Source: a virus. Taken from it: 41,754 nt of DNA. The stretch lies in IMG/VR virus record IMGVR_UViG_3300023176_006589, positions 1 to 41,754 of that record. One strand, written 5' to 3'. The position numbers and the translations under genes are program-made. Positions 2,551 through 36,774 of the stretch are shown here, in pieces (the first letter of the stretch is position 1; each line of letters begins with the position of its first letter). The notes beneath the pieces were generated by a model. That model searched no databases. It had not been told where the DNA came from and saw only the letters and a program-made list of their open reading frames with translations.

Positions 2551-2595
2551 TTTGGATCTCCTTTATTAATATTAATTTAATTAAAAACCAATTTA

Positions 2596-3653: not shown

Positions 3654-3661
3654 TATTTATA
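3654..3661 (-). promoter_or_regulatory. Late-type promoter box (TATAAATA) before gp22-gp23
   Basis: Exact TATAAATA on the minus strand in the gap between gp21 and gp22, about 65 bases upstream of gp22. It could supply extra transcripts for scaffold and capsid, the proteins needed in greatest amount. Confidence 0.7.
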
Positions 3662-3666
3662 AAAAG

Positions 3667-4344: not shown

Positions 4345-4364
4345 ATCTATTCCCTATTAAAAAC

Positions 4365-4372
4365 TATTTATA
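4365..4372 (-). promoter_or_regulatory. Late-type promoter box (TATAAATA) before gp21
   Basis: Exact TATAAATA on the minus strand, 20 bases from the gp21 start codon, in the gap after the 84-residue gene. The predicted leader is about 15 bases, just enough for the ribosome site. Confidence 0.65.
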
Positions 4373-4378
4373 ATCAGT

Positions 4379-4633: not shown

Positions 4634-4645
4634 CTTTAATATTCC

Positions 4646-5794: not shown

Positions 5795-5827
5795 GTTTAG
5801 TCCCTAATTTAATTTCTATATTACCTT

Positions 5828-5835
5828 TATTTATA
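5828..5835 (-). promoter_or_regulatory. Late-type promoter box (TATAAATA) before the Cys-cluster protein
   Basis: Exact TATAAATA on the minus strand just after the portal gene stop, 33 bases upstream of the Cys-cluster protein's start. Confidence 0.7.
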
Positions 5836-5838
5836 TTA

Positions 5839-7365: not shown

Positions 7366-7381
7366 AATATCACCTATTTAA

Positions 7382-7915: not shown

Positions 7916-7938
7916 TCTTTTTCTCCTTTATTAAAAAT

Positions 7939-7946
7939 TATTTATT
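7939..7946 (-). promoter_or_regulatory. Near-consensus late box (AATAAATA) before gp19
   Basis: AATAAATA on the minus strand, one base off TATAAATA, 23 bases upstream of the gp19 start and overlapping the sheath stop codon. The same variant recurs in other gaps of this operon. Activity is uncertain. Confidence 0.35.
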
Positions 7947-9861: not shown

Positions 9862-9924
9862 ATTATTCTCCTTTAAATATTATCTATTTTAAACCTATTT
9901 ACTAATTTATAGTTATCACAGTTT

Positions 9925-9932
9925 TATTTATA
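9925..9932 (-). promoter_or_regulatory. Late-type promoter box (TATAAATA) before gp18
   Basis: Exact TATAAATA on the minus strand in the gap after the terminase gene, about 64 bases upstream of the sheath gene. Confidence 0.7.
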
Positions 9933-9942
9933 ATAATTTAAA

Positions 9943-11562
9943 CTACACTTCAAAAGTTCTTTCAGGTCTGTACTCAATCCATCCTTGTTCATCTGGTAAT
10001 GGATCCCCTGTATCAATAAATCCGAAAGGTAGTAATTCTTCATCAAGCTGTTGTTCAGTTTTTTCTTTCAATGCTGCTAATGTATTGATATCTGTTAATT
10101 CTCTAAAGAATCGTTGGTCAGATAACCAAGCAAATAATACTAGATTCATAACGAGATCATCGTTAGCTCCAGATTCAGCTTCGTAAGAATTACCTTTTTT
10201 ACTAAAACGTGATAACTCCTGTATTGTATTATAATCTTGTATTATTAACTGATTTTGTTCAATTAATAATTTCAATATAGAACAACCTTTTGATTTTACT
10301 TGTCGGGTTGTTCTTATTCCATGATCTGCTCTCTTCCCTCCAAAACCACCTGAAACTTGTTTACCGGATCGGCCGGCATTTTCAGTGAAAAGAAGATTTT
10401 CATAGCCGTAGTCCATTAAGAGTACATCAGAAACCTGCTCACCGATGTCATTGATTTCTATTAATATGGCACTCTCATTATACATCAGCCCTATTCTATA
10501 TATAACAGAGGCAAAGTCAACTGGACTTATAGTATTGTCCTGAAAGCAACATACTTGTTTGTATGGCATTTCAGTTACATCAATCATAGTAAATGTTGAA
10601 TAATCAAGGCCTTTACCTCTTGACACATCAACTGTCATAACATATGAATGATTAGGTATTGCTTTTTCGTATTGTGTAATACCTTCACTTTCAGTAATTG
10701 GTTTGGATGGTGCTAGTTCTTTTAATTTGGCACCACTAATAAGAGTACCTGAACTACCCAAGAATTGACAACAGTACTCTTGATTAAATTTTTCGTTATC
10801 AAAATCTAATGCTTCAAGAGTTTCATCTTTCCATTGTTCGTCTCTACCTGGAACATCATACCACATAACTTCAACAAACTCATAACCGTTAGTACCTTCT
10901 TTGGCACCTTTACAAGTTTTCCAAAAATGGTTCAATCCATTTGGTGTTGAAGTCATTAATAACTTTGTACTTTGACCTGATGAAATTGTTGGATATACTG
11001 AAGCAAAGAATTCATCAAATCCTTCAATAAACGCAACCTCATCAAGATATAGAAAAGAAATAGATTTACCTCTAATTGCCGAAGATGTTGTAGTTCCTGC
11101 GTATATCTTACAACCATTTTCCAATGTTATATTACCTTTATTCCATTCTTCAATACCTTGCTGCATCCATTTAGGTAATGCCTCATAGGCAAGCTGAACT
11201 CTCCCTAATACTTCTCTAGCCGCATCACCTTTGTTTGCCAATATGGCAACGGTCTTAAATTCATTAAATAAGATGTAGTGTAATATAACCGCTACTGCTG
11301 TTGTAGTTTTACCTGCCTGTCTTGATGTAAGTACGGCAACTCTTCTATTCTTTGTAATCTTTTCTGTAATTTCTTTTTGATAATCATACATCTGAATAGG
11401 AATTAAGCCTTTATCAACATGTACAATTTTAATATAGTTTTCAGCGAAGTAAATAGGATCTTCAGCGCATTTCATATACTCCTTCAACATCTCTGGAGTA
11501 AATTCGATTTGTTCTCCAACTTTTTTGAGGTATGAATTACCTAAGTACCCGCGATCTATCAT
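9943..11562 (-). CDS. 17: Terminase large subunit gp17
   Basis: This 539-residue DNA-packaging motor and headful nuclease (T4 gp17, 610) docks on the portal. The ATPase domain shows Walker A SRQAGKTT (80-87), Walker B LYLDE with Asp174/Glu175, and coupling motif TSTPNG (204-209). The RNase H-like nuclease domain has the first acids in VDVSRGKGLD (Asp312, Asp320), then AILIEINDIG and the last in GANDDLVMNLV. It overlaps gp16 by four bases (ATGA), so the two subunits are probably translationally coupled; its own ribosome site is weak. It carries no intron or homing endonuclease, which some T4-like terminase genes do. Confidence 0.98.
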   Translation of the reverse strand: MIDRGYLGNSYLKKVGEQIEFTPEMLKEYMKCAEDPIYFAENYIKIVHVDKGLIPIQMYDYQKEITEKITKNRRVAVLTSRQAGKTTTAVAVILHYILFNEFKTVAILANKGDAAREVLGRVQLAYEALPKWMQQGIEEWNKGNITLENGCKIYAGTTTSSAIRGKSISFLYLDEVAFIEGFDEFFASVYPTISSGQSTKLLMTSTPNGLNHFWKTCKGAKEGTNGYEFVEVMWYDVPGRDEQWKDETLEALDFDNEKFNQEYCCQFLGSSGTLISGAKLKELAPSKPITESEGITQYEKAIPNHSYVMTVDVSRGKGLDYSTFTMIDVTEMPYKQVCCFQDNTISPVDFASVIYRIGLMYNESAILIEINDIGEQVSDVLLMDYGYENLLFTENAGRSGKQVSGGFGGKRADHGIRTTRQVKSKGCSILKLLIEQNQLIIQDYNTIQELSRFSKKGNSYEAESGANDDLVMNLVLFAWLSDQRFFRELTDINTLAALKEKTEQQLDEELLPFGFIDTGDPLPDEQGWIEYRPERTFEV

Positions 11563-12047
11563 TCGTTGTTATCGCCTTTAATCATTTTTAATAAATCGGC
11601 GGTTGATACAATTAAGTTATTATTCGTAACTTGAGTGGATGGTCCAGATTCTTCTTTAGCAAATCTTTTCTTTGTAGACATTTCAACATAATCTTTGTTT
11701 GCATCAAGCAATGTTTTCATTAGTGTGGATACAACTTCAAATGCTCGAGGAGATTCTGATTGTTTCGCAATTGCTGTCATTTCTTTAACTGCATCATCAC
11801 CAAGATTAATAATATTCTCAATATTTTGTTTTGCTAATTCAATGTCTTTTAAATTTTCTTCAGCTTCTTTTGTAATAGCCGCAATAGGATGTACTACACT
11901 TTCTTGCGGTAAATTCTTTAAATTATCTACACTTTCCTGCACCAAAGGATCTTCTTTAAGAGTTGCTTCAAATTCAGCCCTTAAATCTTCTTTGGCATCT
12001 TCCAAAGGTCTCATATTTAAAGCTTGCGCAATTTTATCATCAGTCAT
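11559..12047 (-). CDS. 16: Terminase small subunit gp16
   Basis: This 162-residue protein (T4 gp16, 164) forms rings that recognise viral DNA and stimulate the gp17 ATPase. It is mostly helical, with central predicted coiled coils (EAEENLKDIELAKQNIENIINLGDD) and a family-like end NNNLIVSTADLLKMIKGDNNE. The start is set at the second ATG (12047, MTDDKIAQALNM) because AAAGGA lies eight bases before it, while the upstream ATG at 12056 touches that ribosome site. Its first bases overlap the end of the nucleotidyltransferase gene and its last overlap gp17. Confidence 0.9.
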   Translation of the reverse strand: MTDDKIAQALNMRPLEDAKEDLRAEFEATLKEDPLVQESVDNLKNLPQESVVHPIAAITKEAEENLKDIELAKQNIENIINLGDDAVKEMTAIAKQSESPRAFEVVSTLMKTLLDANKDYVEMSTKKRFAKEESGPSTQVTNNNLIVSTADLLKMIKGDNNE

Positions 12048-12486
12048 ATTCACCATCCTTTGCTTTGTATTCCTTATTATTTATTGCGCATGATTTTCGT
12101 AATAGGCTGCTACTGAATCTGTGATCTCTTTTATTAAAGTGTAAATCAATATCTCGCTTACGACAGATATCTTTTCCTGTGAAATCTTTATCACGATATT
12201 CTTCTCCTAATATACGAACATGAATTGTATATAGTTCTAAAATATCTTCAAGATCTCTTTCAGTACAATAAGGAATAATTTCGTCAACATATCTTACTGC
12301 CTTAAGTTGACTATATCTTTCTACAATAGTTTGAATAGGTGGGTTCTTTATATTAGGACGATCCTGTGAAGGATCCATTTGTAATCCTACAATTAAATAA
12401 TCACATTGTTCTTTTGCTTCTCTTAGCATTTGAACATGGCCAGCATGAAGCAGGTCAAAACTGCTACAAGTAAATCCAATTTTCAT
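12040..12486 (-). CDS. Cytidylyltransferase-like nucleotidyltransferase
   Basis: This 148-residue single-domain enzyme of the HIGH-type nucleotidyltransferase superfamily is closest in look to glycerol-3-phosphate or related cytidylyltransferases, which join CTP to a phosphorylated alcohol or sugar. The N-terminal FTCSSFDLLHAGHVQML has the nucleotide-binding HxGH at 14-17. The strand DYLIVGLQMDPS follows. HRFSSSLLR (122-130) occupies the place of the family's C-terminal RTxGISTT signature but is altered. The substrate is unknown. It lies between gp15 and gp16, a place where T4 has no gene, has a good ribosome site (AGAGGA), and overlaps gp16 by eight bases. It may work with the glycan cassette at 17.9-20.9 kb. 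Confidence 0.88.
   Translation of the reverse strand: MKIGFTCSSFDLLHAGHVQMLREAKEQCDYLIVGLQMDPSQDRPNIKNPPIQTIVERYSQLKAVRYVDEIIPYCTERDLEDILELYTIHVRILGEEYRDKDFTGKDICRKRDIDLHFNKRDHRFSSSLLRKSCAINNKEYKAKDGEYD
12078..12085 (-). promoter_or_regulatory. Near-consensus late box (AATAAATA) before gp16
   Basis: AATAAATA on the minus strand, about 30 bases upstream of the gp16 start and inside the 3' end of the nucleotidyltransferase gene. Weak evidence alone; it is one of a recurring set. Confidence 0.3.
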
Positions 12487-12499
12487 AATTTATTTCCTC

Positions 12500-13357
12500 T
12501 TAACTAGGTTCAGTATCGGATACTTGCTCGATAAAGTCCCAGTCGTCATCAAATTCAATTAAACTAAAATCAACGGTTAGTTCAGGATCGGTTGTTGGTG
12601 TACCGTTTGCTGTCATACCTGGTTGCATAGTTTGATATTCAACAAACTCTGTATTCGCAAGTATATCATCAGCATAACGAACATCAATAAATCTGATAAT
12701 ATTCTTATCTCTTTCAGGTCCAAAGAACCAACCTTTCATTGTAAAGTTTAATGTATATATTATACTTCTTCTTGTTGTGAATGCTTCTTCATAAACATCT
12801 TCACTTGTTACTCCAGATAAAATTAATGGAATATCAAGTGGTTCCAATCCGTCAATTAATCTTACAGTGCTTGTATGTTCTGGATTAAAGAACGGTAATA
12901 TTTGTTCTAATATTTTAACGGCATCTTCATTATATTTTGCCATAATGTATAAACTGAATCCCATGTTATATGGAGTTCCTGCATACAGAAATTTGCGATA
13001 TCCGCTTGCTTCATCAACTGCAGTCTTTCTTAATTTTCTTGTAGGAGCAACTTTTCTTTCAGTGTCATATGTAAACGATGTAAGTTCAAAAGCCATACGA
13101 GGTAATGTCATTGCGTATGGTTGTCCTGCCGAAGGATTACCAGATGCATCAGTGGAAGCTCCACCTAATAATGCAGGATCTTGGTCAAGACGAGCTAAAA
13201 TCTTTTGATATGGTCCATAAGAAATAGGTACTATTTGTCTCTGATTAAGTGTACCATCAGTGCTTGTTCTTCTAACTTCTAATTGATTAAAATATGTACC
13301 AAATAAGGCAACATATTTGCGAATCGTAGAATTGTAAAAATAGTTTGCTATTGCCAT
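12500..13357 (-). CDS. 15: Tail completion / sheath stabiliser gp15
   Basis: This 285-residue homologue of T4 gp15 (272) forms the hexamer that caps the finished tail and joins it to the neck. The start AIANYFYNSTIRKYVALFGTYFNQLEVRR and the segment YDTERKVAPTRKLRK are characteristic. The C-terminus is acidic (FDDDWDFIEQVSDTEPS). Its ATG overlaps the gp14 stop as TAATG, which points to coupled translation of the neck and tail-terminator proteins. Confidence 0.95.
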   Translation of the reverse strand: MAIANYFYNSTIRKYVALFGTYFNQLEVRRTSTDGTLNQRQIVPISYGPYQKILARLDQDPALLGGASTDASGNPSAGQPYAMTLPRMAFELTSFTYDTERKVAPTRKLRKTAVDEASGYRKFLYAGTPYNMGFSLYIMAKYNEDAVKILEQILPFFNPEHTSTVRLIDGLEPLDIPLILSGVTSEDVYEEAFTTRRSIIYTLNFTMKGWFFGPERDKNIIRFIDVRYADDILANTEFVEYQTMQPGMTANGTPTTDPELTVDFSLIEFDDDWDFIEQVSDTEPS

Positions 13358-14043
13358 TATGAGTCACTTATTTGTATGTTTTCACTAAACGGATCTACTT
13401 CTGAGAAATCAATAATACCATCTGCTTCAATTTCAAAGTTTAGGTTATTTGATAGATCATCAGTTTGTGCAAGTGCATTTAGTGTAACTGTATTAGAAAC
13501 GTATACATCTGTATTGTAATCTGCAAAGTAATTATCAATTTCTGTTCGGCCTGTATTGAATCTTTGGTTGCTGTATTCAATCAATTCACATGTCATATCA
13601 AATACTTGAGTTTTACCCATTTGATAAAATACGCTTTCATGTTCAACGTATTTAATTTCAAAAATCTTTTCGTTTAATGGGAAGTAAATTAAATCGCCTT
13701 CTCTTGGACGAATAAGTTCAACAACCTCTCGAGTTACATATCTTTCAAATGTTCTATTCGCAACGGTAAGTGTTAATTGATCTCTGATTTGTAAACCGAA
13801 CTTAGATAAGAAATCACCTTCACCTTCAAATCCTTCGTTATTTTTAACATAAACTTCAAATTCAAAAGTTTCATTATATTCTGGAAAATCGTCTTCATTA
13901 AAGATTACATCACGACCTTTAATTGCTCTACTAATGTAAATGACATCAACACCATACTGCTTGATAGATTCAATTACTAAATCGTCAATCAGTTCTTGTT
14001 CAGAAAATCTCTGATAGTTGTTGAAAAATACATTAGTTGCCAT
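13357..14043 (-). CDS. 14: Neck protein gp14
   Basis: This 228-residue homologue of T4 gp14 (256), with gp13, forms the head-completion and neck assembly that receives the tail. Family features are the start MATNVFFNNYQRFSEQELIDDLVIESIKQYGVDV, then YISRAIKGRDVIFNEDDFPEYNETFEFEVYVKN, and GDLIYFPLNEKIFEIKYVEHE. The C-terminus is acidic. It sits three bases after gp13 and overlaps gp15. Confidence 0.95.
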   Translation of the reverse strand: MATNVFFNNYQRFSEQELIDDLVIESIKQYGVDVIYISRAIKGRDVIFNEDDFPEYNETFEFEVYVKNNEGFEGEGDFLSKFGLQIRDQLTLTVANRTFERYVTREVVELIRPREGDLIYFPLNEKIFEIKYVEHESVFYQMGKTQVFDMTCELIEYSNQRFNTGRTEIDNYFADYNTDVYVSNTVTLNALAQTDDLSNNLNFEIEADGIIDFSEVDPFSENIQISDS

Positions 14044-14046
14044 TAC

Positions 14047-14790
14047 TTATCCAATATAGTTATAAGAGAGAGGTTGTAATTCGGATATTGCGTTTTCTTC
14101 CATTAATCTTCTCTCTTCTCTCGCATCGGAAAGTATTTGTTCTCCATTGAATGATACACCGCCTACAAGTTGCATACCTGTAAACTTAGTTAAGTTTGAA
14201 CCCCACTGCTCTTTAACTAATGCAGTTGCGTAATTTTGTAACCAACGATCTGACCACACATCTGAATACGAAGCAGGATCAATTACATCGTATGCTTCAA
14301 TAATGAGATACTCTCCTTCAGTTAATACACCTTTATCCATGTCAAGATGCAATCTATTAACGTGTTTATTATAACGAACCATTGGTTTACCTACAAGCAT
14401 TTCTTGTAAGAATTCTAAATGACTCATTGACATATAATAATTTGTAATATTATAACCTGTGATATCTTCAAGATTATTTAAAACGAATTGATACTGAACA
14501 TTAAAAATACCTGAACCTGTTGAAATACTTGACTGCATATCAAAGATGCCTGAAATACCAAGGATTGTTGTAGGCAAATCAATATAACCATTTGCTACAT
14601 CATCTGCAGTAAGTTGGTGTTTTAAATAAATTAATTGACTACCGTTATAATGATAATCTCTCCAAAAATCAATCGCTTCATCAAGACGATCATCTACCTG
14701 TTCATCGGACACATTAATATCAATGACAGGTGCACCTAGCTTACGGAGTACCCATGCTTTGAATTCTTCTCTTGTTGTTGGTTGTGCCAT
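14047..14790 (-). CDS. 13: Neck protein gp13
   Basis: This 247-residue homologue of T4 gp13 (309) is a head-completion protein that binds the portal after packaging. The start (TTREEFKAWVLRKLGAPVIDINVSDEQVDDRLDEAIDFWRDYH) and the C-terminal helix region (WLQNYATALVKEQWGSNLTKFTGMQLVGGVSFNGEQIL) are typical of the family. It begins the standard 13-to-23 gene series. A near-consensus late box lies 27 bases upstream. Confidence 0.95.
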   Translation of the reverse strand: MAQPTTREEFKAWVLRKLGAPVIDINVSDEQVDDRLDEAIDFWRDYHYNGSQLIYLKHQLTADDVANGYIDLPTTILGISGIFDMQSSISTGSGIFNVQYQFVLNNLEDITGYNITNYYMSMSHLEFLQEMLVGKPMVRYNKHVNRLHLDMDKGVLTEGEYLIIEAYDVIDPASYSDVWSDRWLQNYATALVKEQWGSNLTKFTGMQLVGGVSFNGEQILSDAREERRLMEENAISELQPLSYNYIG

Positions 14791-16922: not shown

Positions 16923-17858
16923 TTAAAGCCCAGCTTGTTGTCCATAAGTTGCATTTAATATTCCACCAGAATTTGGTACTTCTGCAGTTGAATAAAAAGT
17001 TCCTTCATTACATACAACTTTAACTCTAAAATCTGGATTCGCCGAAGCAAAGTTGGTTGTAGTATTTGTTGTCCCAGAGCTTTGATTTGGATCTCTTTGT
17101 GCCATCCACCCAAATCTAGTTGTTCCTGGTGTAGTGCTTATATTATAATATGTTCCAGAGTTATAACCATTTGAAACTGGAGTTGGACCATACGCGTAAT
17201 TAGAAGGAGTACAAGTTCCACTACAAGCTTGAGATGAAACATTGTATTGTGCCTGGACCGAACTAATACCTGTTAATCCAGTATAGTTTATATAAGTTGT
17301 GGTTGGAGTACTTGGCGCTGCCGATGTGCCAGAATCAAATACTACAATAATTCTATTATTTGCATCATCTCTTTCAAATCTAACATAAGCCCATGCTTCG
17401 GGCCAGCCAACTTGTGATGTTTCGGATTCACTAAAATTAATACCTAATATACTAAATGAGCTGTCCATAGTTGCAGATGGTGTACCAGCCGCATCATAAG
17501 GAAGTGCTGTTGCTCTAACAGTAGAAGCATCCCAACAAGTTAAAGTAACTGTCCAAAATCTATTTGAGGACCATGTAATTGCTGTTGGAAATTTAACTTC
17601 TGAAGGCCAAGAAGGTGCATAAGGAGTAGTACTAGTATCAAGAAGCAAAGTTACTTGTTTTCCTACACCTCTATTAGAAGTAGTAAAAGTAACGTTACTG
17701 GTCATTGCCAGTGTTTGATAAGTTTTTGTGAAATCTATGTCTGTAGTAATTGTGCTAACAATAGGATGCCAATTATCAAAAGTGCCTGCACACTCTTCTA
17801 TATTTTCTAAAGCACGGCTGTCATTAATTACTGTAAAACTGGATACTTTGATTGCCAT
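16923..17858 (-). CDS. MAIK-module structural protein C (311 residues)
   Basis: The N-terminal module (about 1-125: MAIKVSSFTVINDSRALENI, NWHPIV, IDFTKTYQTLAMTSNVTF, LLLDTSTTPYAPSWPSEVKF, RFWTVTLTCWDASTVRA) matches the two following genes. It is followed by a distinct beta-rich Ser/Thr/Asn domain (about 130-311) containing a YINYTGLTGISSVQAQYN strand set and CSGTCTPSNYAYGP. This is the first of the three paralogues in transcription order, and an exact late promoter box stands 44 bases upstream. A tail or fibre-tip role is inferred; no enzyme motif was seen. Confidence 0.75.
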   Translation of the reverse strand: MAIKVSSFTVINDSRALENIEECAGTFDNWHPIVSTITTDIDFTKTYQTLAMTSNVTFTTSNRGVGKQVTLLLDTSTTPYAPSWPSEVKFPTAITWSSNRFWTVTLTCWDASTVRATALPYDAAGTPSATMDSSFSILGINFSESETSQVGWPEAWAYVRFERDDANNRIIVVFDSGTSAAPSTPTTTYINYTGLTGISSVQAQYNVSSQACSGTCTPSNYAYGPTPVSNGYNSGTYYNISTTPGTTRFGWMAQRDPNQSSGTTNTTTNFASANPDFRVKVVCNEGTFYSTAEVPNSGGILNATYGQQAGL

Positions 17859-17901
17859 CTTCGTCCTCTCGACTATTAGCAGTTAATTTAATTTATAGTT
17901 T

Positions 17902-17909
17902 TATTTATA
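17902..17909 (-). promoter_or_regulatory. Late-type promoter box (TATAAATA) before the MAIK genes
   Basis: Exact TATAAATA on the minus strand, 44 bases upstream of the 311-residue gene and immediately after the glycan cassette. It separates late structural transcription from that cassette. Confidence 0.7.
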
Positions 17910-17911
17910 CA

Positions 17912-18661
17912 TTAGTCACGGCGCTCAATGTCATCTTCTGATAAAATATTGCCAAGCCATACTTCAATTACCTTCGCAGGTTCTGTTCCCACATTTGTTG
18001 CTTTATGCCAAACACCTTTTGGGATATCAATACTTTGTCCTGCTACATATACGTCATGGTGTATATGATTTTCTTTTTGTAGAACCATTTTAATAGATCC
18101 TTCTACAATATGCCAATGTTCTGATCTATGTTGATGTCTTTGGTCACTTAAAGATTTGCCTGGATCAAAGGATAATTCTTTTACTTGCCAATTGCCGTTT
18201 GAATGTAAAACTGTATATGTTCCCCATGTTCGTTTAACCGTAGGTTGCGACCATTCTTTTAATATCCAGCTTGAAGAATTCTTTTTATTTTCTCCACCTA
18301 TACCAAATTCAAACTCAATACCTTCTACGGTCATCTCAGGGATGTTATCTGATGTTCTATCACCACCATTTACGAATACAATAGTATCATTGGGGTATAG
18401 TGCTTTAACTTGTTCTAAGCAATCTATCGCACTTCCATCTGAATCGTCAAAAGCCATTACTTCATCAACAAATCCTAACGCTCCTACAATTGCGGCTCGT
18501 TCTTCCCAAGGCATAAAGTATCTACCTTTCTTTTGTTTTAACCAAGAGTCTGAATTTACTCCGACAATTAATCTCATACCACAAGCAGCAGCTTCTTCGA
18601 GATATTTAATATGTCCTGAATGAATTGGATCAAATCCTCCAGTAGCTACTATGGTAATCAT
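17912..18661 (-). CDS. Nucleotidyltransferase-cupin fusion (RfaE2/HldE-like + type II phosphomannose-isomerase-like cupin)
   Basis: A 249-residue two-domain protein. Residues 1-135 are a HIGH-superfamily nucleotidyltransferase: TGGFDPIHSGHIKYLEEA with HSGH at 14-17, LIVGVNSDSWLK, PWEERAAIVGALGFVDEV and VNGGDR. This pattern is closest to the C-terminal ADP/CDP-sugar-forming domain of HldE (RfaE). Residues about 145-249 are a cupin like the C-terminal domain of ManC/type II mannose-6-phosphate isomerase: WGTYTVL, FDPGKSLSDQRHQHRSEHWHIVEGS with likely metal ligands His176, His178, His182 and perhaps His219, and IPKGVWHKATN. The start is ATG 18661, sharing a base with the methyltransferase stop (TAATG); an earlier GTG/ATG option lies in that gene. 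The substrate is probably a sugar phosphate, not known. Confidence 0.88.
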   Translation of the reverse strand: MITIVATGGFDPIHSGHIKYLEEAAACGMRLIVGVNSDSWLKQKKGRYFMPWEERAAIVGALGFVDEVMAFDDSDGSAIDCLEQVKALYPNDTIVFVNGGDRTSDNIPEMTVEGIEFEFGIGGENKKNSSSWILKEWSQPTVKRTWGTYTVLHSNGNWQVKELSFDPGKSLSDQRHQHRSEHWHIVEGSIKMVLQKENHIHHDVYVAGQSIDIPKGVWHKATNVGTEPAKVIEVWLGNILSEDDIERRD

Positions 18662-19890
18662 TACAATTCCTCCATGAAATAATCCCACACAAAATTAGAA
18701 TCTTTATTTGTTTTCATTTCTTTTGGTAAATCAACAAGTTCAGAATGAATATACCAATCTTCGTATGGATGTCCAGGACAAAAAGAAACATTTGGTACTG
18801 CTAATACATATCCATGTTTCTTTAATATATTTCTTGCACTGTCTCTTCTTTCATTTCCTAATCTATAAAAATCGTGTTCAAAAGTAATGATTCTAAACTT
18901 AAACCTATTAAACGGTATATTTTTTAAGATATCAATTGACGCATCATCACAATCAATTTGTAAGTAATCAATAACAGGTTCCATAGAATGGGCATTTAAC
19001 ATATTTTCAAAAGGAATGACTGTTGCATCAGAACAAATAACAGTATTATTTCTGTTTTCTTTGAACTTATAACATAAAGCTTCTGAATTATCAATGGAGA
19101 TACCTTTCCAATTAAAATTGCTTTCAAGCAATGCAGTATTGTTATGAACAAATGGATCTCCTGAACCAATCTCTAAATATGTACCGTTTTGTTTACCATT
19201 AAGAACAGATAAAACAAACATATCTTGAAAATGTTTTGAATGATTCTTATGAATATTATATAGACCATTAAAGTTAAATTTAAATCTATCGGCATCATCT
19301 GCAATAAAAGGTATAACATCAGGATACCAAATACTATTCATAATTCTATCAACTTTTTCTTTTAAGCCTGGTTTTAGTTTATGTCTATATTTTAAACTAA
19401 AGAATAGTTGTTTACCGTTTTGCTGACCTGAAATATACCATGTTGCTAATGCTTGATAATATAATAAGTATTCATAACCAGGAAATCCTAATTCACAATT
19501 TTCTTCGAGTGTGTCAGGAAGTTCAGTATTTAAAGCATTTTCTGCATGGAATAGACAATGTTTCCATAATGATTTACTTTCGTAATGTTTACATAAATGA
19601 TAATGTGCTTCAGGTCTATCTGGAATTAATGCAGCCGCATCAAGAAATGCTCCTTCTACCGTAAAGCCTCGATCTCGTTGTCTATCATAACAACGACCAA
19701 TACCTATCATACATTTATATTGTAATTCTTTATCATCATTAAATTCTGAAGAAGATAAATCAGCAGCTTTCAAATATAAAGAAACTGCCATTGCTCCTTG
19801 TTCTAACTTATCATATTCTTTTGCCAAGTCATAACATTTTTGAGGATTCTTTCCATCTAATATATGATCTTCTAATAATTGCTGTAACAT
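18661..19890 (-). CDS. TPR - FkbM-type methyltransferase
   Basis: A 409-residue protein. Residues about 1-180 are helical repeats of TPR/SEL1 kind (DLAKEYDKLEQGAMAVSLYLKAADL, MIGIGRCYDRQRDRGFTVEGAFLDAAALIP, EAHYHLCKHYESKSLWKHCLFHAENAL). Residues about 220-400 form a Rossmann methyltransferase of the FkbM (Methyltransf_21) family: SAM-binding YLEIGSGDPFVHNNT (238-252), GISIDNSE, VICSDATVIPF, and DYLQIDCDDASIDIL followed by ITFEHD. FkbM enzymes usually O-methylate sugars of glycans or polyketides, so capsule, LPS or virion glycans are plausible targets. It lies between the GH130-like gene (3-base gap) and the nucleotidyltransferase-cupin gene. Confidence 0.88.
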   Translation of the reverse strand: MLQQLLEDHILDGKNPQKCYDLAKEYDKLEQGAMAVSLYLKAADLSSSEFNDDKELQYKCMIGIGRCYDRQRDRGFTVEGAFLDAAALIPDRPEAHYHLCKHYESKSLWKHCLFHAENALNTELPDTLEENCELGFPGYEYLLYYQALATWYISGQQNGKQLFFSLKYRHKLKPGLKEKVDRIMNSIWYPDVIPFIADDADRFKFNFNGLYNIHKNHSKHFQDMFVLSVLNGKQNGTYLEIGSGDPFVHNNTALLESNFNWKGISIDNSEALCYKFKENRNNTVICSDATVIPFENMLNAHSMEPVIDYLQIDCDDASIDILKNIPFNRFKFRIITFEHDFYRLGNERRDSARNILKKHGYVLAVPNVSFCPGHPYEDWYIHSELVDLPKEMKTNKDSNFVWDYFMEEL

Positions 19891-19893: not shown

Positions 19894-20928
19894 TTATCCT
19901 CTTGCCACAAAATCGAAGAATACCTCTTCAGGCATTTTTAATAAAAAGGTTCCGTTGTCTTGATAACCAAACGATACTATCATATTTCCATTTAAAAAAG
20001 TCATACCTGTGGCAAACTCAATATTATATTCATATCCTGTGGTTGGGTCAATCTGTGTACCCATAAAATGGAAGTCGCGAGTTTTATGAATAACATTCCA
20101 ATCTTTATCCCATACAATAATACGATGATTGTAATGTCCATCTTTACGATGGAATACATCTCTTGTTAAATCAACCTCGTGAGTAAATGTTAATCTTCTT
20201 CCTTCACCAATTGGATATACCTGAGTACCTCCTCGTAAATCTCTTGGCATTTGAACAAAAGATGTTTGATCATGGTGAACAGTTTCAGTTGTTCTATTTT
20301 CAATATCGTATTTTACAACTTCTGTAGGATTACACCACTTTACAAAATGCCAAGGTTCATCTATAATAGGCATCCAATTCTTTTCACAATAAGTTGAATC
20401 ATCTCCTGGAGCAGGAATTGGGTTACGAGAAATTTCTTTCCATTCTCCATCAACAAAATCTATTTCTTGCATTTCCATTCGACCCTTTCCTTTATCGTCG
20501 TAACAATCTCTACGAACACCACAAAGGAATAGGCGGTTATCCCAACTGAATAAACGACCATCTTCAAGACCAATAAAGTTCCAAGTTGGATCTGTATCAA
20601 ATTCTGATGTATTAATACGACCTGAATTTAAAACATTTAATTCACTATCTAACTCACACATAATATTATATGTCGTTAAACTAATGTCGTTTTCTGGATG
20701 TAAGTATTGTAAAGGACCCCAGGTATGAGGAAAGCGTTTACCTTCTGAATGGTAAAGCGTATAATTAACATGACGAACATTTAAAAGAATCCTTCCATTA
20801 TGTACAAAAATAGAAGGATTCATAATTCCTGTTTCGCCGGTTAATTCTTTTGGAAGGGTAATTGGGTGAATACTTCCGCCACGTTTCAATGCGTAGTGCA
20901 CTAATCCGTGAAGACGTAAATCATGCAT
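19894..20928 (-). CDS. GH130-like five-bladed propeller, putative glycoside phosphorylase/hydrolase or sugar-binding protein
   Basis: This 344-residue, Trp/Asp-rich beta-propeller protein resembles the GH130/GH43-type fold. Features are IMNPSIFVHNGRILLNVRHVNYTLY near the start, GLEDGRLFSWDNRLFLCGVRRD (EDGR at 122-125, compare the EDPR motif of GH130 mannosyl phosphorylases), EKNWMPIIDEPWHFVKWCNPTEVVKYD, RGGTQVYPIGEGRRLTFTHEV and a C-terminal YNIEFATGMTFLNGNMIVSFGYQDNGTFLLKM. GH130 enzymes phosphorolyse beta-mannosides; whether the catalytic acid is kept needs a structural comparison. It is the first gene of the cassette, with GGAG six bases before the ATG and a perfect sigma70 promoter in front. 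Confidence 0.75.
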   Translation of the reverse strand: MHDLRLHGLVHYALKRGGSIHPITLPKELTGETGIMNPSIFVHNGRILLNVRHVNYTLYHSEGKRFPHTWGPLQYLHPENDISLTTYNIMCELDSELNVLNSGRINTSEFDTDPTWNFIGLEDGRLFSWDNRLFLCGVRRDCYDDKGKGRMEMQEIDFVDGEWKEISRNPIPAPGDDSTYCEKNWMPIIDEPWHFVKWCNPTEVVKYDIENRTTETVHHDQTSFVQMPRDLRGGTQVYPIGEGRRLTFTHEVDLTRDVFHRKDGHYNHRIIVWDKDWNVIHKTRDFHFMGTQIDPTTGYEYNIEFATGMTFLNGNMIVSFGYQDNGTFLLKMPEEVFFDFVARG

Positions 20929-20962
20929 GTGAACTCCATTATATAAATCAGTTTTATATTAT

Positions 20963-20991
20963 ATTATAACATACTTTCGTATGTTTGTCAA
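20963..20991 (-). promoter_or_regulatory. Consensus sigma70 promoter (TTGACA-17-TATAAT) of the glycan cassette
   Basis: On the minus strand TTGACA (20986-20991) is followed after exactly 17 bases by TATAAT (20963-20968), the full bacterial housekeeping consensus. Transcription would start near 20956, giving a leader of about 28 bases to the GH130-like ATG with GGAG at 20934-20937. The spacer is an inverted repeat, ACATAC-GAAA-GTATGT. A near-consensus late box abuts the -35. Confidence 0.85.
20969..20984 (-). promoter_or_regulatory. Palindrome in promoter spacer, possible operator
   Basis: ACATAC-GAAA-GTATGT is a perfect six-base inverted repeat filling the gap between the -35 and -10 boxes, where a repressor would block polymerase. 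It could also be chance in AT-rich DNA. Confidence 0.4.
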
Positions 20992-20992: not shown

Positions 20993-21000
20993 TATTTATT
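20993..21000 (-). promoter_or_regulatory. Near-consensus late box (AATAAATA) beside the sigma70 promoter
   Basis: AATAAATA on the minus strand one base upstream of TTGACA, overlapping the stop of the 110-residue gene. If active it would add late transcription to the glycan cassette. Confidence 0.3.
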
Positions 21001-21331
21001 AAGACCAAGGAACGCTTTTTTCGACTTTGCCTCTGGAATTAATATTCTTTGCTATCTTTGAATCGTATTTAGCAATTTGGTCAGCAGATATATTAGATTC
21101 TAACCAACCAATAACTTGTGCTTCAGTTAAATCAGCAAAAGGAGTAAAGTCAGCTTGAGCTACATCATCGGCATACACATCTGTATGCCCAACAACTTTT
21201 GACGTGTTGCCGTCAGCATCAACTCCAATCCTTCGCCATTTAATTTCAACAACAGCATCCGCCAACGATACGCCTTCAGCGTTCGTTACGTCTCTTGTAG
21301 ATAGCTTAACTATTGACCATGAGTAATTCAT
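20999..21331 (-). CDS. Small structural-region protein, paralogue of the next gene upstream
   Basis: A 110-residue protein. YSWSIVKLSTRDVTNAEGVSLADAVVEIKWRRIGVDADGN, then FTPFADLTEAQVIGWLESNIS and a terminal VPWS, match the order of motifs in the 145-residue neighbour (YTWTWEVTGLKKKDQVNSEGATLQGAVVQTYWKVTGTDGSGN, FSDLTEETVLGWIKAVV, MPWAP). The predicted fold is a beta-sheet followed by a helix pair. Such pairs occur near fibre genes in marine T4-like phages (I recall the family label DUF7936, unverified). GGAG lies six bases before the ATG. A fibre-associated role is possible. Confidence 0.75.
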   Translation of the reverse strand: MNYSWSIVKLSTRDVTNAEGVSLADAVVEIKWRRIGVDADGNTSKVVGHTDVYADDVAQADFTPFADLTEAQVIGWLESNISADQIAKYDSKIAKNINSRGKVEKSVPWS

Positions 21332-21825: not shown

Positions 21826-21833
21826 TATTTATA
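21826..21833 (-). promoter_or_regulatory. Late-type promoter box (TATAAATA) before the paralogue pair
   Basis: Exact TATAAATA on the minus strand, 43 bases upstream of the 145-residue gene, in the only clear gap between the 137-residue gene and the pair. Confidence 0.7.
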
Positions 21834-21857: not shown

Positions 21858-22271
21858 TTAATCGTTAATAGCATCTGCCCAAGTTGGCAGTGTCATTAAA
21901 TGATCGTAACCTTGTTCTACAACAGTTTTTTCCGATGCCATATCTATAGTGAAATTCATATTTTGCTCTTGATCTTGCATAATATTAATTTCCATAGAAT
22001 TGTCTGCAGTAGGAACTTCCGTAGGATACTGTGCATATGCCGCAATAGGAGCTTTACCAGCTTCTCTTGCTTCTTTACTTGCATATACAACAACAGAAGC
22101 TCGACCATAATAACCAGCTCTCCATACGTGATCTGGCGCATTATCAGGTCTTACTCCTCCAGGATCTTCAGTATCAACAGTCCGCTTAGTTGTTACTACG
22201 TTATGTATAACATGATAAGCATTAGGACAATCCAATCCGTTCTTTAATTCATAACTTTTTATTAGTGCCAT
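21858..22271 (-). CDS. Small protein after the giant fibre, function unknown
   Basis: A 137-residue protein starting MALIKSYELKNGLDCPNAYHVIHNVVTTKR. It has a beta-rich core (GRASVVVYASKEAREAGKAPIAAYAQYP) and an end that could be amphipathic (DHLMTLPTWADAIND). Its ATG shares a base with the stop of the giant fibre gene (TAATG), so it is translated with it and may be a fibre chaperone or attachment protein by analogy with T4 gp38/gp57A positions; the sequence itself shows no known domain. Confidence 0.75.
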   Translation of the reverse strand: MALIKSYELKNGLDCPNAYHVIHNVVTTKRTVDTEDPGGVRPDNAPDHVWRAGYYGRASVVVYASKEAREAGKAPIAAYAQYPTEVPTADNSMEINIMQDQEQNMNFTIDMASEKTVVEQGYDHLMTLPTWADAIND

Positions 22272-25200
22272 TATTTATTCCTTTCTCTTTCAATTTTAAG
22301 TTCCTCTCTCAATTCATCTACTTCAGATTTAAGATCTTTAATAGCCTGAATTAAAAATGGAGTGATTTTATCATAGTTTACTGTTAGGTAGTCTTTGACT
22401 TCTTCGCCATCAATGATGACCTTTTCTTTACCGCCGTTACCAGATTTATTTATAACAACCGCATTAGGAAGTACTTCTTGTGTATCTTGAGCGATAACAG
22501 AAACTTCTTCCAATCCACCCTCGATAACACCGGCAGTTACTTGTTCAGCTTCTTTCTTCCAATTAAATCGACTTGGTTTCAGTTTCATGATTGTATCAAG
22601 ACCTTCACCTCTTGGAAGTTCTTGAATATTTTCTTTCAATCTTCTATCTGACCAGTAAGCAACAACGTTACCTGGTGTATATACTGAACCATCTAGATAT
22701 AGACGCCATCCATAATATGTACTGTAAAAACCGTGTACAGTTTGATTCATCATCAAACAGATGTTACCATCAAACTGCATACCACCCCAACCGTTACGAG
22801 AACCTTGAACTCTCCAAGAACCGTAAGAAGCGTTATTTGGATAGAAGTGAGCGCCGTTAATACCAGAGTAAATACCGTGATATCCAGTTAAGTTGTTCCA
22901 AGTATATTGATAACTATAACCAGATCCACCGTTGAACTGCCATCTAATAGTACCCATTGGATAATCATCATAAATACGAGTACCTTCGTAAGAGGCATTA
23001 GCACCTAACTTAATACCAGTGTGGAACGCAATTCTTAAATCAGGATATGGATAACCCCAACCACCACCTTCTTGGAATATTCTATAAGCATGGGCTCCGT
23101 TACCAGAGTTACCACCAACACCTTTTGGTTCCCACCAACGGGCGTATTGACCTTCGTTACTAATAACATTCATGTTTGAAGTTGACGAAGGATCTACATA
23201 ATAACCGCTGTTATTTGAATCATAGAAGATTGTACCGTAAATAGCACCATCACTTCCGAAGTATTTGCTTCCGTTCCAATAGTTCTCTTTCAGAATGGAT
23301 CTTCCATTCATATACATTTCGTTTACATTGAAATAGAAGTTAGACCTATCAGTATAGACATGAGCGTGTCCACCGTTAGCAGGACCAAACTGAATCCAAC
23401 CGTATGGAGTTTGATGTCTCCATCCCCAGTCACCACCTCTGAAGTAATAAGAACCATTACCGTAATCTATACTTGATAATCTACTTCTTCCATTAGGATC
23501 ACAGAAATAACCTGTATTATTTCTATCGTAGAATATATAAGCTCTGAAATCGGAAGCATATCCATTACCGTAAATTTCAGTCGTACCGTAATTTGTTCTT
23601 AATGCCCAACCACCGCCTGCATTAAGGAAACCGATATTATTACTGTTATCAGCATATACGTAACCACGAGCGTTATTACCTGAAGTCGTAAATAAGATTT
23701 GTGAAGTACTTGATGTAGAGTACAATCTCCATCTTGAAGAACTATCAGAGTACCAATGCATCGCTGTTGCTTGGTTATATAATCCTTCACCTGAGTTATA
23801 GTTTCGGAACCAGTTATCAGCGTAGAATTCCCAAGCACGTATATTATTACCTCTTACATCACCTGAACCTGAACCGAAGTAATAAGCAGTATCATTACGA
23901 TCATATAGAATATTTGCTCGTATATCATTCATAGAAGATACACCAGCACCATCCCAATAATATGAATTATTATCTCTATCGTAAATAAAGTTAACTTGTA
24001 GTGTACCGTTAATCCAAGTAGTACCACCTACATACCAGTTAATATATGTACCGTATCCTGACCTTGCGTCAATGTGTAAGTTACCGTTAGTTACTGCGAC
24101 AGAAGCATAAGAACCAGTCCAATGTCCGTTTGTACCAACTGCGAGGTATTGACCCCAAGATGGGTTAGGTCCATATAATGTACCACCTCTTTGTCTTCCT
24201 GCCGCATTACTTGTACTGTTAGGATCGTAATAATATCCAGTATCATTTGAATCATAGAAGATTGGAGCGCGGTAAGAACCACGAGCTTGCATATATCCGG
24301 GCTGAGCATATTCTTCCCAAGTACCGTTATAGAATAATTCAGTTCTACCGTTACGACGCCAAATTGTCATCCATTCATTATCAATGTCGTTATAGATACC
24401 ACATTCATCATTGTTGGCTGACATGAATACATAACGACCGTTAATTGAATAACCTTCCCAGCCGCCTTTACCGCCACCGTTAACCTGAATAGAACCATAG
24501 TTACCAGTTGGGTAATCTATATAAATTCCAGTGTTATCATTATAGCAAGGATAAATCCTGTTAGTAAGTAATGAATTTAAACGAGATGTACCATTAGGAT
24601 CTACATAATAGTTTGTATCATTCCAATCATAATAGATTGGAGTTCGAACATCTGAAGCAAATACCGCTCTACTTGAAATAGCAGCTCTAAATCCACCGTT
24701 GTTGATAATCAACATACCGTGATCGTTTAGTTGGTTAGCACCACCTAGTCCGCCTGCGTTTGGATGCGACCAACCAATACCATACATATTTGCTGTTGAA
24801 GTACCTGCAGAGTTAGGTCTATAAGAAGAACCCATTGCGAATACTAATTGTAATCTTGTAGAAGCGTAAGAACCAGTTACACCAAGACCGTAGTTATTAA
24901 ATGTATGATATCCGTTTTGGTCTGATGAATTCCATCTAGAATTTGAATGACCGTCAAAATAATAGCCTGTATTATTTCTATCGTAATATACATAAGAATA
25001 ACTATTTCTTGCATATAGATCGTCACCTCTTGCATGGTTACGATTTTGAATAACAGTTTGTGGTGTATCAGTTCTTGGAGCAACACCAGATCCGTTACCA
25101 CCTGGGTCGTATGAACCATAAGAAACTGTAGGTCCGTAATTACGTCCTTTTACTCTGATGTGATAGATAGCACCACCGCTACCACCACCTCTTAACCAGA

Positions 25201-28200
25201 TTACAAATCCTCTTTGGTTACCGAAGTGAGCAACTTCTGCAGCAATCGTAGTATATGTTTCACGGAAATCATCAAACTGAATGTCGTAAGTCGATCCGCC
25301 CCAGCCACCGAAGTTTGTTCTGAGTAAGCAAGTCAATCCACCGTGGTGAACACCAGTACCAATTGGGTTCCAAGGAGCTTGTTCAGCGTATCCACGATAA
25401 ATTTCGATCTCAGTGACAATATCCTGGTTGCCACCCCACCATGTTACTGGATAGTAAGTATTTTCGTTACCATTGATAACAATATCACCAGCCCAATACT
25501 GAGCATTGTTAAAGTCAGATGTATCAATAGAATTAACAGTAAGTTGATTTAATCTTGTTGTGCCATTAGGATCTACATAGTAATTAGTATCATTGTTATC
25601 ATACATAATCGGCGTTCTGAATTGACTGAACGCATATACGATACGGTTAGTGTCAACTCTGAATGATTCATATTGACCAGGTGAGTAAGATCTTGTTCTT
25701 CGACCTGAATAATAGTTAAGATAAATATCGTTGCCGCCTTGTGCATCAATATGTAAATTACCACCGAGATAAATTCTACCAGCACCATTTACAGATTCTA
25801 TTGTTGCAGCGTTTTCAACTCTAAGTTGATTTACTCTTGTATCTCTAAATCTTGAATCACCTGAACTTGAACCGAAGTAGTAAGCTGTGTTATTTCTGTC
25901 GTAGAAAATATTTGCTCTAACATCGTTCATGTAAGAAGTACCACCGAAGTCACCGTAGTATGAAGCATTATTTAAATCATAATATACAGGAGCACGCATA
26001 TGTCTTGTTGCTCTGAATACTTCAGTTGCTACTTCAGCATTATATTCTACTTGATCTCCCCAGAATACAAATGTTGCACCTGTACCATCTGGGTTAGCAT
26101 CAGATACTCTTATCTCTGCATCAAATGCAGTATTAATAAATCCGATTCTATTACCACGAAGTGTTAATGTATTGTATCGTGAATCACTTGCTGGGTTTGA
26201 ATAATATGATGTATCGTTTGTATCGTAGAAGATTGGAGCTCTCCAATCCTGAGAAGCAGTACCACCAACGCCGTGTAATCTACCATCGTTCGCAATATAA
26301 GACCTATCAGAACCATCTTGTCTGAACTGAACAATTCTGTTTGAGTTTCCGTTAGATACAATGTACCAACGGTTACTGTGCATCTGAATCTTACCTACGC
26401 CTGCCCCTGGGTTTCCTGTCCAACTTGAATTACCGTCTGAACGAATATCGGAACTTGTAATATTAATTGCATTTGCACCACCATTAAAGTCCCAGGTACC
26501 AGCAAGTGTAGCAGCGTTTAGATTTGATGTACTTGCTGGGTCAACATAATACCCAGTATTATTACTGTCATAATAACGGGCGAAATATGCATTATTACCA
26601 TACACATTACTTCCGATGATTACTTCACCACTTGTATTGATTCTGAATCTTTCAGTACCCCAAGATTGATTTATATGACCGTGATTTTGTCTGATTCTGA
26701 ATTGGTCGTCTACATAACCGAAACCAACTGACCAAGTTGTTGTATTATATCCACTTGAGAATAAGATAGAAGGTCGGTCAGTACCACTAGGTACGCTTTG
26801 AGCTGATATATCACCAACTCTAAATTCATGAACAATACCCCAAGAGTGATTACCGTATTGGTTAATGGTTCTTGCTGCAGTATAGTTTCCTGGTGTTGAA
26901 CCTGTTCTGTAAACAGAAAGAATATCTTGTGAAGGTCCATCTTGAATATCTAATTGTTTAATTCTTGAACCTGAGTTAGGATCTACATACCAATTTGTAT
27001 CGTTTAAATCATAGAAGATTGGAGTACGAAGTTGTCCGCGAATATCTGCTCGACCAGCATTGGTCAATCTCATTTGATATACGCCGTTTCCACCTCCAGC
27101 TGTAAATTGTAAATTACCACCTGAATTTGTACTTAGGTTATCTGGTGATTCGTAAATTTGCCATTGGTTACCACCGTTCCATTTAATACCTTCTGAAGGA
27201 CCTGGATCGTTAATAGTTATTGCATTAATATTATTAAGATTATAATTATTGAAATTCCAGTTACCAGCAACATTACTACCATCTTTAGGATCTACATAAT
27301 ATCCAGTATTATCTCTATCTCTTAATATTCTTGCATCTATAATGTCGGCTGTAATATCATCAACAGTTAAATCGCCGACAATATTAACATCTCCACCAAT
27401 TTGTACATCATCAAGTACTTCTAAATCATCAACTAATAAATTAGATTCAGCATTACGTCTCTTCAACATAATACCAGCAAATTGTCTTAAAGCACCACCT
27501 GAGTTGTAGTTCATTAAGATACGAATTCTTACATAGTAACAGCCGCCTCCGTCAGACCCATTATATGGAGTATGAGATGTTGGAATAGTTGTATGATTTC
27601 TGTATGTTGTCCAAGAAGTTCCTGTATAGTTTGCACCGCCAACTACAAAGTATGTTGTACCTGTATTACCAGCAATTGGTCTCTTCTCACTATCATATCT
27701 TTCAATACCATAATAAACTAAACCACCTGAACCTGAAATATACTTAACAGAAATTTCACCGTATAATTCTTCACCAGGAGCAACAGGAATTAAGTCAGAA
27801 TAGAATGTTCTATAAGCAGATGTTTGTAATACATAAGAACCTGCGAAAGGACCATCTGTTGTTCTAACATATTCTGATGTTGTGGTTGTAAGTGGGCTTT
27901 CATTAGGTGCCATTGCTTTAATGACACGCTTATCAAAATATTCTGTTCCATCAAATAGTACTAAGTCAGCTCCGCCTGAACCGTATGTCTTAACAAGTTC
28001 AATATTTTCATTACCGCCATTAAGTACAATACTGCCTGCAGATAATATACCATTAAAGTGAGCATTACCATTATCAAGGTCAATACTTGCTCTTACATTA
28101 CCAGAACCTACGAATACTAATTCATTTGGATTAGATGAACCAAAGTATGAATAAGCAGCATTGTTATTGCCTGCCCAGAAGATACCCCAATTAGTAGCAG

Positions 28201-31200
28201 TGTTCCAAATCCAATGTGAATAATCTTGAGCTTCTAATAGTTTATTATTATCACCATTGGAACCTGTATCCCAACCTTGTCTATAAATTCGACCATTAAT
28301 CATTAATGCTCGGTTTGTATTACCTGCAGCTGGATTTAAGTAATATGTTGTATCGTTTGAATCATAATAGATTGGTGCTCGCATTTGATTTGTTGCGAGG
28401 AAATAACCATTTTCTGTTTCAGCTTGTTTATTACCATTATAATAAAAATCAACACCTGCATTACGATCTGTTCTTATGACCCACTTATTATCGGTGTCGT
28501 TGTAAATACCTGCTTCATCAACTCCACTTGCCATGAAATTCCATTGACCAGCAATAGAATAACCAGCCCAACCATTTCTGGTACCACCAACTTCCATTGT
28601 GGCATAATCACCTGAAGCAACATCCATATAATAGTTTGTGCTATGATCTAAATAATATCTTAATGCTTGAATTGCATTGAATCTTGATGTATTATTAGGA
28701 TCTACGTAATAGCCTGTATTATTTGAATCATAGAAGATTGGAGTACGTAATTGATTATTTGCTAGGAAGTATCCGTTTTCTGTTCTTGCTTGTTCACCGC
28801 CATTATACATCAATCTCATTGCGGCCTGACGGTCAGCATACCAGAACCATTGATTATTTACATCGTTATAAACACCTGTTCGGTTGGCTCCATCATGCAT
28901 AAAGACAGAACGATCATCAATACTAAATCCTGAATATCCACTTCTTGCACCGCCGCTTACGGCAAGTGAACCAAATGTTCCTGTAGGTTCTCTTAATACA
29001 ACAGCGTTACCATCAAGCTTAATAGTATCCATTCTGGATTCGCCAGCAAAATTGCCAAAGTAAGCAGTATTATCTAGGTCATAATAAATTGGTGAATAGG
29101 TAGCAGTATCAACTCTTAACGTACCAAATATTTGAGAAGTATAACCACCGTTCGAAGCACCTGACGAACCTGTGAAAGTACCCCATCTTTGTAATGGTGA
29201 CCAAGCATTTGTACCAAGTGTTTGTGAAAGATATATTGGTACTCCACCGCCGTGGTCAAACTTGTGGAATTTATGAGCCCAGGTATTACTATTGTAATTA
29301 CCTCTCATCATCAATCCGTTAGTGCTTGAGTTTGCTCCGCCAATATTTTCATTACCAACATTGATGTTCATAAACTGTTGATAAGAAGTACTTGCTGGGT
29401 CAGCGTAATATGTATTATCATCAGCATCGTAATATCTGCTTGCATACATATTAGCAGCTGTTACATCACCTGAGAAATTACCTGTCCCTGAATGTAACGA
29501 AGCCCAACGATAACTTGAATTACCAAGAGCACCTGAGTTGTTTGTTATAGGTACTAATGAACCACCACTTGCTCCACCGTTTTGACCAAATACATAATGA
29601 GTAATTGCTTCGGAAGCATTAAAATACCAAGCAGCGTTTGAGCCTGTTGTGACAGCTCCATCAGCATGCCAGAATGTAATAGAACCCTGTTGTAATCCAG
29701 TTAATCCAGGAGTCTCTGCACTGTTTTGGTCTGATACTGTAAGACCTACACCACCGCCATTACTTTGTTTTTGTATTTCAATTCCACTTGAATAGAATTG
29801 GACTGTATTGTTTCTTGACCTAAATGCACCGTTATTAATCTGTAAACGATTCACACCATTTGTTTGGAAAAGTAATGTATCATTACCTGAGAAACCAATT
29901 AAAGTGTTTGTATCACCACGATGACGAATATAATCATCAATGTCAACTGTATTTAATTGTGAAGTTCCATCTGGGTCTAGGTAATAATTTGTATCGGCTT
30001 CAGCATAATATAATGAACCGTGATAATTTGCTGTTGTGTAAATATCCTTATTGTTTCTGGCACGAATATAAGTGGTATCATTCATATACCAACCGCCACC
30101 AGATCCAAACGCAAGTTCATCAGTACTTAAGAATGTTGATGTTCCAGTACCAACTACAAATGCATCTTCATTTCCATTTAATTGGATTGAACCTCCAACA
30201 TGCAATTTATTGTTTGAAATAACTCTTGGTGTTCCTGGAGTTGATCCATCAATTACTGAAGTATTATCGGTGACAGTATATGTAGGTGAAGCACCTGCGT
30301 TAACCATGACATCTGCATTATCATCAACAATTAATGCCTCAGAATAACCTGATGTCCAGAATCCCCAATTGGTTCCTGATTTTAATACTTGATATAAGTT
30401 GCCTGAACTATCACCGCGAATAGAACTTCCATCAACACCATCATGATAGAAGTGAATATATCTGCTACCATTTTGTGTTGGGTTTGAAGTTGCATCAATT
30501 CTGTTTAGATATAATAATGAATATCCACCGGCATTAGCTCCACTTATCGCGATAGTCGGGTTTGATGTTGCAGCATCGTCACCGTAAGAAAGTAAAGCAA
30601 TACCACCATTGCCTGTATTATCAGACCATCTAGTGTTGTTAGTAATATCACCAATTCTTACAGCACCATTTAAAGTTGCTGATAACGAAGCATCCGCTGG
30701 GTTTACATAATAAGATGTATTTTGTCTATCAACAAATTTATCTGCTTGAATATCACCTTCAACGACAACCGTTTGATAGAATGTTGAATTTGCATCGGTA
30801 ATATTTAATCTTTCAGAACCACCTGTAAAAAATGTAATACTATCATTTGCGTCAAAACCAAAATATGTATTAGTATCACCGTTATGAGCAATATAATCAT
30901 CAAGACCAATATCATTCATTACCGAAGTGCCGGCAAAGTTACCATAATAAGCGGTATTGTCGTTGTCGTAATAGATAGGCGAACGCATTTGATTTGCTGC
31001 TAATACATAAGTATCATTAACAAGCAATCTTTGAGTATTTCCAGTGACAACCTCAAAACTGTTTGCAGCATTAAAGTTTAAATATGTATCAGTATCACCG
31101 TCGTGGAATATAGTACCAACAAGACCAATTCCATTTACTCTTGAATTACTTGCTGGGTCTACATAATATGTTGCGTTATTTAAATCGTAAAATCTTCCTG

Positions 31201-33403: not shown

Positions 33404-33454
33404 TCGGTTCACTCTCCCCAGATAGGCGGTTTAAATTGTTCAATTGTACCTTTT

Positions 33455-33462
33455 TATTTATT
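33455..33462 (-). promoter_or_regulatory. Near-consensus late box (AATAAATA) before the giant fibre
   Basis: AATAAATA on the minus strand in the short gap between the two fibre genes, 51 bases upstream of the giant fibre start. It is the only promoter-like site in that gap. Confidence 0.4.
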
Positions 33463-33465
33463 AAG

Positions 33466-36735: not shown

Positions 36736-36774
36736 ATATATGTCCTTCTATATCATATACCTATTTAGGCAAAA

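Follow-up and report, generated by a model that had tools for sequence, protein, structure and literature searches.

Why should a host-type promoter with perfect consensus boxes lie among the genes for virion parts, in front of genes that appear to act on sugars? The window, that is, the whole 41,754-nt stretch analysed here (IMG/VR record IMGVR_UViG_3300023176_006589), is a T4-like virion block of a marine phage, carrying orthologues of gp23, 22, 21, 20, 19, 18, 17, 16, 15, 14 and 13 at 1231-14790 and fibre genes at 22271-40710, all of them on the minus strand. Seven minus-strand TATAAATA boxes stand about 20-75 nt before minus-strand genes, which bears out the initial annotation in reading most other promoter-like sites in gaps as T4 late boxes; such boxes, with A or T as the first base, are shared with other T4-like phages (PMC1524935). 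The closest cultured gp23 proteins are those of the Sinorhizobium phages phiM12/N3 (65.9%) and the Methylophilales phage Melnitz (64%), followed by cyanophages, and gp23 is about equally distant from several groups.

The minus strand at 20991..20963 reads TTGACA AACATACGAAAGTATGT TATAAT, matching all 12 consensus letters with a spacer of exactly 17 nt, just as initially annotated. The -35 box (20986..20991) and the -10 box (20963..20968) lie in the gap between the stop of a DUF7936 gene (ORF 20999-21331) and the ATG of a gene for a GH130-fold protein (ORF 19894-20928), about 35 nt from the latter; a TGT precedes the -10 box, placing TG one base ahead of TATAAT and forming an extended -10. From the usual distance between -10 and +1, transcription is predicted to start near 20956, upstream of a ribosome-binding site GGAG at 20934..20937 (minus strand). 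In hexamers, spacing (16-18) and placement before an ORF, the site agrees with the early, host sigma70 promoters of T4-like phages. It is not itself a T4 late promoter, a type that works with gp55 and gp33 and needs no -35 box; a late-type box, AATAAATA, abuts the -35 box at 20993..21000 on the same strand. Between 14000 and 28000 there is no further 12/12 match, and the whole window has two, where 0.21 are expected (spacings 15-19, both strands). The other, at 37067-37095 on the plus strand, runs antisense within a fibre gene and is kept in relatives; as a promoter it was discounted, the fibre protein motif SIITxxxDPVNxxDAVN on the other strand explaining its letters.

Sites of the form TTGACA-N16-18-TATAAT were common in 40 related contigs, and their spacer was almost always 17 nt. 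The 156-kb contig G009 holds 25 sites at spacing 17, three at spacings 15, 16, 18 and 19, and two at ten control spacings together; the corresponding numbers in G031 (137 kb) are 16, one and zero. Most of the sites in these two contigs are followed, 20-45 nt on, by an ORF that is not part of the virion block. The named ORFs encode a primase, a sliding clamp, a gp46/47-type exonuclease, a polynucleotide kinase-like protein, a metal-dependent phosphohydrolase and ribosomal protein S21; an N16 site precedes a dNMP kinase gene, and small ORFs of no named family are among the others. The class is thus enriched before the early and replication genes of the lineage, as in the early promoters of T4-like phages. 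For the species of the window itself, four more class sites were found in the 7.9 kb beyond gp23 (contig G002), against one in the 21-kb virion block.

Within ten syntenic virion blocks of 21-28 kb, perfect N17 sites on the sense strand occurred at four places only: P1, at the small ORF that opens the run of genes leading to the GH130-fold gene, three genes before it; P3, at the GH130-fold gene, which is the site in the window; P4, inside the methyltransferase gene; and P5, at the orthologue of a nucleotidyltransferase gene. None of the ten blocks had a class site before gp13-gp23 or in antisense orientation. P4 was discounted as a coding motif (IDNSEALCYNFKENR) of the methyltransferase gene. 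The nucleotidyltransferase gene (phrog_7878; 12040..12486, minus strand) lies between gp15 and gp16 and is a second sugar-type gene in the virion block; P5 precedes its orthologue in seven related contigs, and none stands at the gene in the window. Sites explained by coding aside, the class is thus found in the virion block at sugar genes or just upstream of the cassette headed by the GH130-fold gene.

These counts bear on whether the match arose by chance or was forced by a protein sequence, a notion that gains some colour from the AT-rich genome and from the two other perfect sites, 37067-37095 and P4, being coding motifs. The site at 20991..20963, however, lies between genes in non-coding DNA, shows conservation of both class and position, and belongs to a class enriched at spacing 17 throughout; moreover, of 480 shuffled (dinucleotide-modelled) 1.5-kb upstream regions, none contained a 12/12 site and 7 contained an 11/12 site. 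We regard a fortuitous match as hardly credible. The data instead support the assignment of 20991..20963 to a class of host-sigma70 promoters that the lineage uses for non-virion genes.

Work on T4-like phages regards sigma70 promoters as early and TATAAATA as late (PMC1524935), and in marine T4-like phages, which lack middle promoters, sigma70 promoters are likewise early; phage Melnitz, for example, has 31 sigma70 and 15 late promoters and no middle ones (PMC9004378). The class is typical of the lineage, and on this usual reading of T4-like and marine T4-like genomes it is the early class (PMC1524935; PMC9004378). The suggestion in the initial annotation that this is an early host-type promoter therefore gains from the concentration of the sigma70 class in the replication and early regions of relatives, but is qualified by the late-type box abutting the -35 and by deeper relatives, which mostly lack a perfect promoter. 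As to the further suggestion there, that the products act on the host envelope rather than on finished virions, the observations favour neither the host envelope nor virion glycans as the target. A T4 middle promoter, which would carry a MotA box (GCTT) about 30 nt upstream of its start, was rejected: the spacer holds no GCTT, and neither AsiA nor MotA was found in G009 and G031, the two largest relatives, while the T4 positive control was matched.

The class may be further divided. All 25 distinct P2, P3 and P5 promoters carry the extended TG (P2 being a further cassette promoter described below), compared with 19 of 42 early-region promoters, a set from which two cassette promoters (the L040-type P3 and one P1) were left out. 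In contigs G009 and G031 (L115-L129), two early-region forms were observed, an extended-TG form and a non-TG form with near-unchanged recurrent spacers (TTCATAAAGAACTATAG; TTTGCTTTGAGATGATG), and these may represent two temporal classes. The cassette promoters thus form one subtype, the one with TG, which could act later than the other.

The spacer of the promoter in the window is filled by a perfect inverted repeat at 20968..20985, with 7-bp arms AACATAC and GTATGTT around GAAA. Such a repeat could be the operator of a dimeric repressor, of phage or host origin, making this a regulated promoter that is on under some condition or after removal of the repressor. The perfect 7-bp repeat lying exactly within the spacer fits this idea, as does the length of the arms in the P3 promoters (mean 6.19, against 5.19, sd 0.26, in shuffles that keep the boxes; reached in 0 of 300). 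Among all 93 class promoters, however, mean repeat length is not above that in shuffles. The repeat lies within the spacer in the window, L022, L036 and L037, across the -10 box in L011, L018 and L029, and is lacking at the P3 of L040 and L044; its sequence and position thus vary among lineages, which leaves no single binding site in common, and the lineages are not independent. The window holds no second copy of the spacer repeat at up to 3 mismatches, the nearest partial match being at 4825-4840. We consider control through such an operator unlikely.

The same repeat could alternatively act in RNA, as a GNRA-type hairpin just past the DUF7936 stop codon, where it would shield the late mRNA coming from upstream or bring it to an end; the promoter match would then be secondary. 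The 7-bp stem, the GAAA loop and the position shortly past a stop codon are as such a hairpin would have them, but there is no U-run, promoterless relatives lack the 36 bp in which the hairpin lies, and some promoters have no hairpin, all of which makes this reading very improbable. A hairpin terminator was rejected for the further reason that the sequence folds no better than shuffles (z 0.33).

To follow the promoter through the lineage, 65 loci with a GH130-fold gene were compared. Many lineages, with spacers that cannot be aligned, have P3 at -60 to -76, the same position being occupied by promoters with quite different spacers in L011, L016-L019, L022-L025, L029, L034-L037 and L040-L044. 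Within the clade of the window, every lineage with enough upstream sequence has a class promoter. P3 is absent from the sister clade L007-L010 (88-89% identical), where P1 is found at about -1357, and from the L012-L039 clade, where P2 is found at -883 to -924 (11/12 in L012); L014 has P1 and L020 an 11/12 P2. What lies downstream of P1, P2 and P3 alike is the three-gene sugar cassette. The initial annotation named loss of the boxes in close relatives that retain the cassette as evidence against its reading, and such loss is seen: the 89% identical L007-L010 retain the cassette and lack the boxes at this place, although a class promoter is present some 1.36 kb further upstream.

Between its late box and its ribosome-binding site, the window has 36 bp more than L007, and these contain the promoter and nothing else; the late box lies at -72 in the window, against -36 in L007 and in the P2 clade. 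P1 falls within the 3' part of the fibre coding sequence, and some of its conservation is therefore owed to the protein; it lies 29 nt ahead of the following ORF, however, and homologous fibre ends without P1 score only 6-8 of 12. The 3' end of the 3713-aa fibre gene and the next ORF of 137 aa (about 22271-22400, minus strand) are of another type in the window than in the P1-bearing 89% relatives, which suggests that the fibre end was exchanged along with the promoter.

Late transcription of the cassette has its own candidates. Besides the box abutting the -35, a conserved TATAAATA box at 21826..21833 (minus strand) precedes the DUF7936 gene, and a late promoter there could read through into the cassette. 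The boxes at 20991..20963 might then be a relic or irrelevant, with the late promoters (21833 and 21000) alone driving the cassette, along with the virion genes. The presence of late boxes at these two sites, the retention of the -36 box in the P2 clade, and the deeper relatives (60-65% identity; L046-L049, L052-L053 and L177-L180), which mostly keep the cassette without a perfect upstream promoter and with late boxes only, would all suit exclusively late expression. It is nevertheless quite unlikely, since 12/12 boxes and their spacing persist in many lineages even though the spacers can no longer be aligned, and since loss of the promoter at one place accompanies its presence at another.

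The first gene of the cassette (19894..20928, minus strand) encodes a protein of 344 aa resembling mannoside phosphorylases or mannosyltransferases in its predicted fold. Its model (pLDDT 86) has as top PDB matches the GH130 mannoside phosphorylases/synthases (TM 0.5-0.6, E 4e-10) and also matches Leishmania mannosyltransferases of the same fold; as modelled, it shows the five-bladed propeller of CAZy family GH130. The PF04041 profile did not match the window protein and matched 14 of 40 relatives (best 9.8e-5). The second gene (18661..19890, minus strand) encodes a 409-aa protein with TPR-like helices at the N-terminus and an FkbM-type methyltransferase at the C-terminus, an assignment based on fold matches to TPR proteins and methyltransferases and on PF05050, which matched 13 of 24 relatives. 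Sequence searches of PDB and Pfam recognised neither the 344-aa nor the 409-aa protein, whereas both folds were recognised. The last gene (17912..18688, minus strand) combines a cytidylyltransferase-like domain with a cupin of the mannose-6-phosphate-isomerase type. The names GH130-like, FkbM and nucleotidyltransferase-cupin, proposed initially from the sequence, agree with these assignments, and we infer that the cassette serves sugar or glycan modification, namely the synthesis or alteration of a mannose-type glycan. Among 50,697 phage records, the GH130-fold gene was found in only two, and Melnitz was not one of them. GH130-fold relatives also occur in genomes labelled as Pirellulales, Rhodobacteraceae and Bacteroidetes MAGs (L176-L180), and these resemble contigs of T4-like phages that binning has assigned to unrelated MAGs.

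Taken together, we favour, at a probability of roughly three in four, a working host-sigma70 promoter that drives pre-late expression of the cassette, both promoter activity and early timing being read from the sequence. Recognition of the site by the sigma70 of the host is assumed. Once the DNA is in the cell, unmodified host RNA polymerase would soon begin transcription near 20956, and the mRNA would have a leader of about 28 nt, followed by the GH130-fold, TPR-FkbM methyltransferase and nucleotidyltransferase-cupin genes. The cassette would be expressed ahead of the virion genes, which would wait for the phage late factors acting at TATAAATA boxes. With AATAAATA directly upstream of the -35 box, and with the late promoter at 21833, the cassette would probably stay on late too and so probably be expressed in both phases. 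No terminator-like site was found in the gap after the cassette (17859-17911), and the cassette mRNA may therefore run on into the next genes. A further TATAAATA late box lies in this gap at 17902..17909 (minus strand), before ORF 16923-17858, and is kept at about +3020 in most relatives. The late factors are documented only partly: gp55 is present in the relative G019, gp33 was found in none of five relatives checked, and tblastn with phiM12 gp33 and G019 gp55 gave no match in the related contigs searched.

A more tentative proposal concerns the shifts in position. There may be selection for at least one host-type promoter per cassette, with the promoter moving as the adjoining fibre and accessory genes are swapped: lost at one place (-1350, -900 or -65), it would be kept or regained elsewhere as a module of about 36 bp, which the inverted repeat may tune, so that early glycan remodelling could be timed independently within the virion block. 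We hold this to be possible, though doubtful.

Several known systems resemble the arrangement in part. The early promoters of the T4-like phages RB49, RB43, Aeh1, 44RR and RB69 (PMC1524935) likewise place host-type -35 and -10 boxes before early genes and lineage-specific ORFs, but the T4-type early -35 is GTTTAC-like, compared with the exact TTGACA and strict 17-base spacing seen here, T4 itself has no TTGACA-N16-18-TATAAT site, and the copy in the window lies within the virion block. Melnitz and the marine T4-like cyanophages share early sigma70 promoters, late TATAAAT boxes and the lack of middle promoters (PMC9004378), while Melnitz has six perfect N17 sites, fewer than the relatives considered here, and no GH130-fold gene was found there. 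Phages phiM12/N3 (Emdodecavirus), the closest in gp23 among cultured phages, also lack AsiA and MotA, but 195 kb of sequence contain no perfect promoter with N17 spacing and three with N16. Morons are accessory genes that stand among phage genes of another class and bring a promoter of their own. The cassette resembles them as a set of accessory genes in a late block with its own host-type promoter, and differs in having no terminator behind it and in being present throughout the clade rather than sporadically.

When auxiliary sugar genes are flanked by fibre and neck genes, it is easy to take them for late genes related to the virion or the receptor. The timing expected from a host-type promoter, if true, would move them to the takeover phase, with roles such as changing the cell surface, excluding other phages or supplying sugar nucleotides, or would have them act in both phases. 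Furthermore, the strict TTGACA-N17-TATAAT rule offers a simple means of annotating pre-late genes in the uncultured T4-like phages of this lineage.
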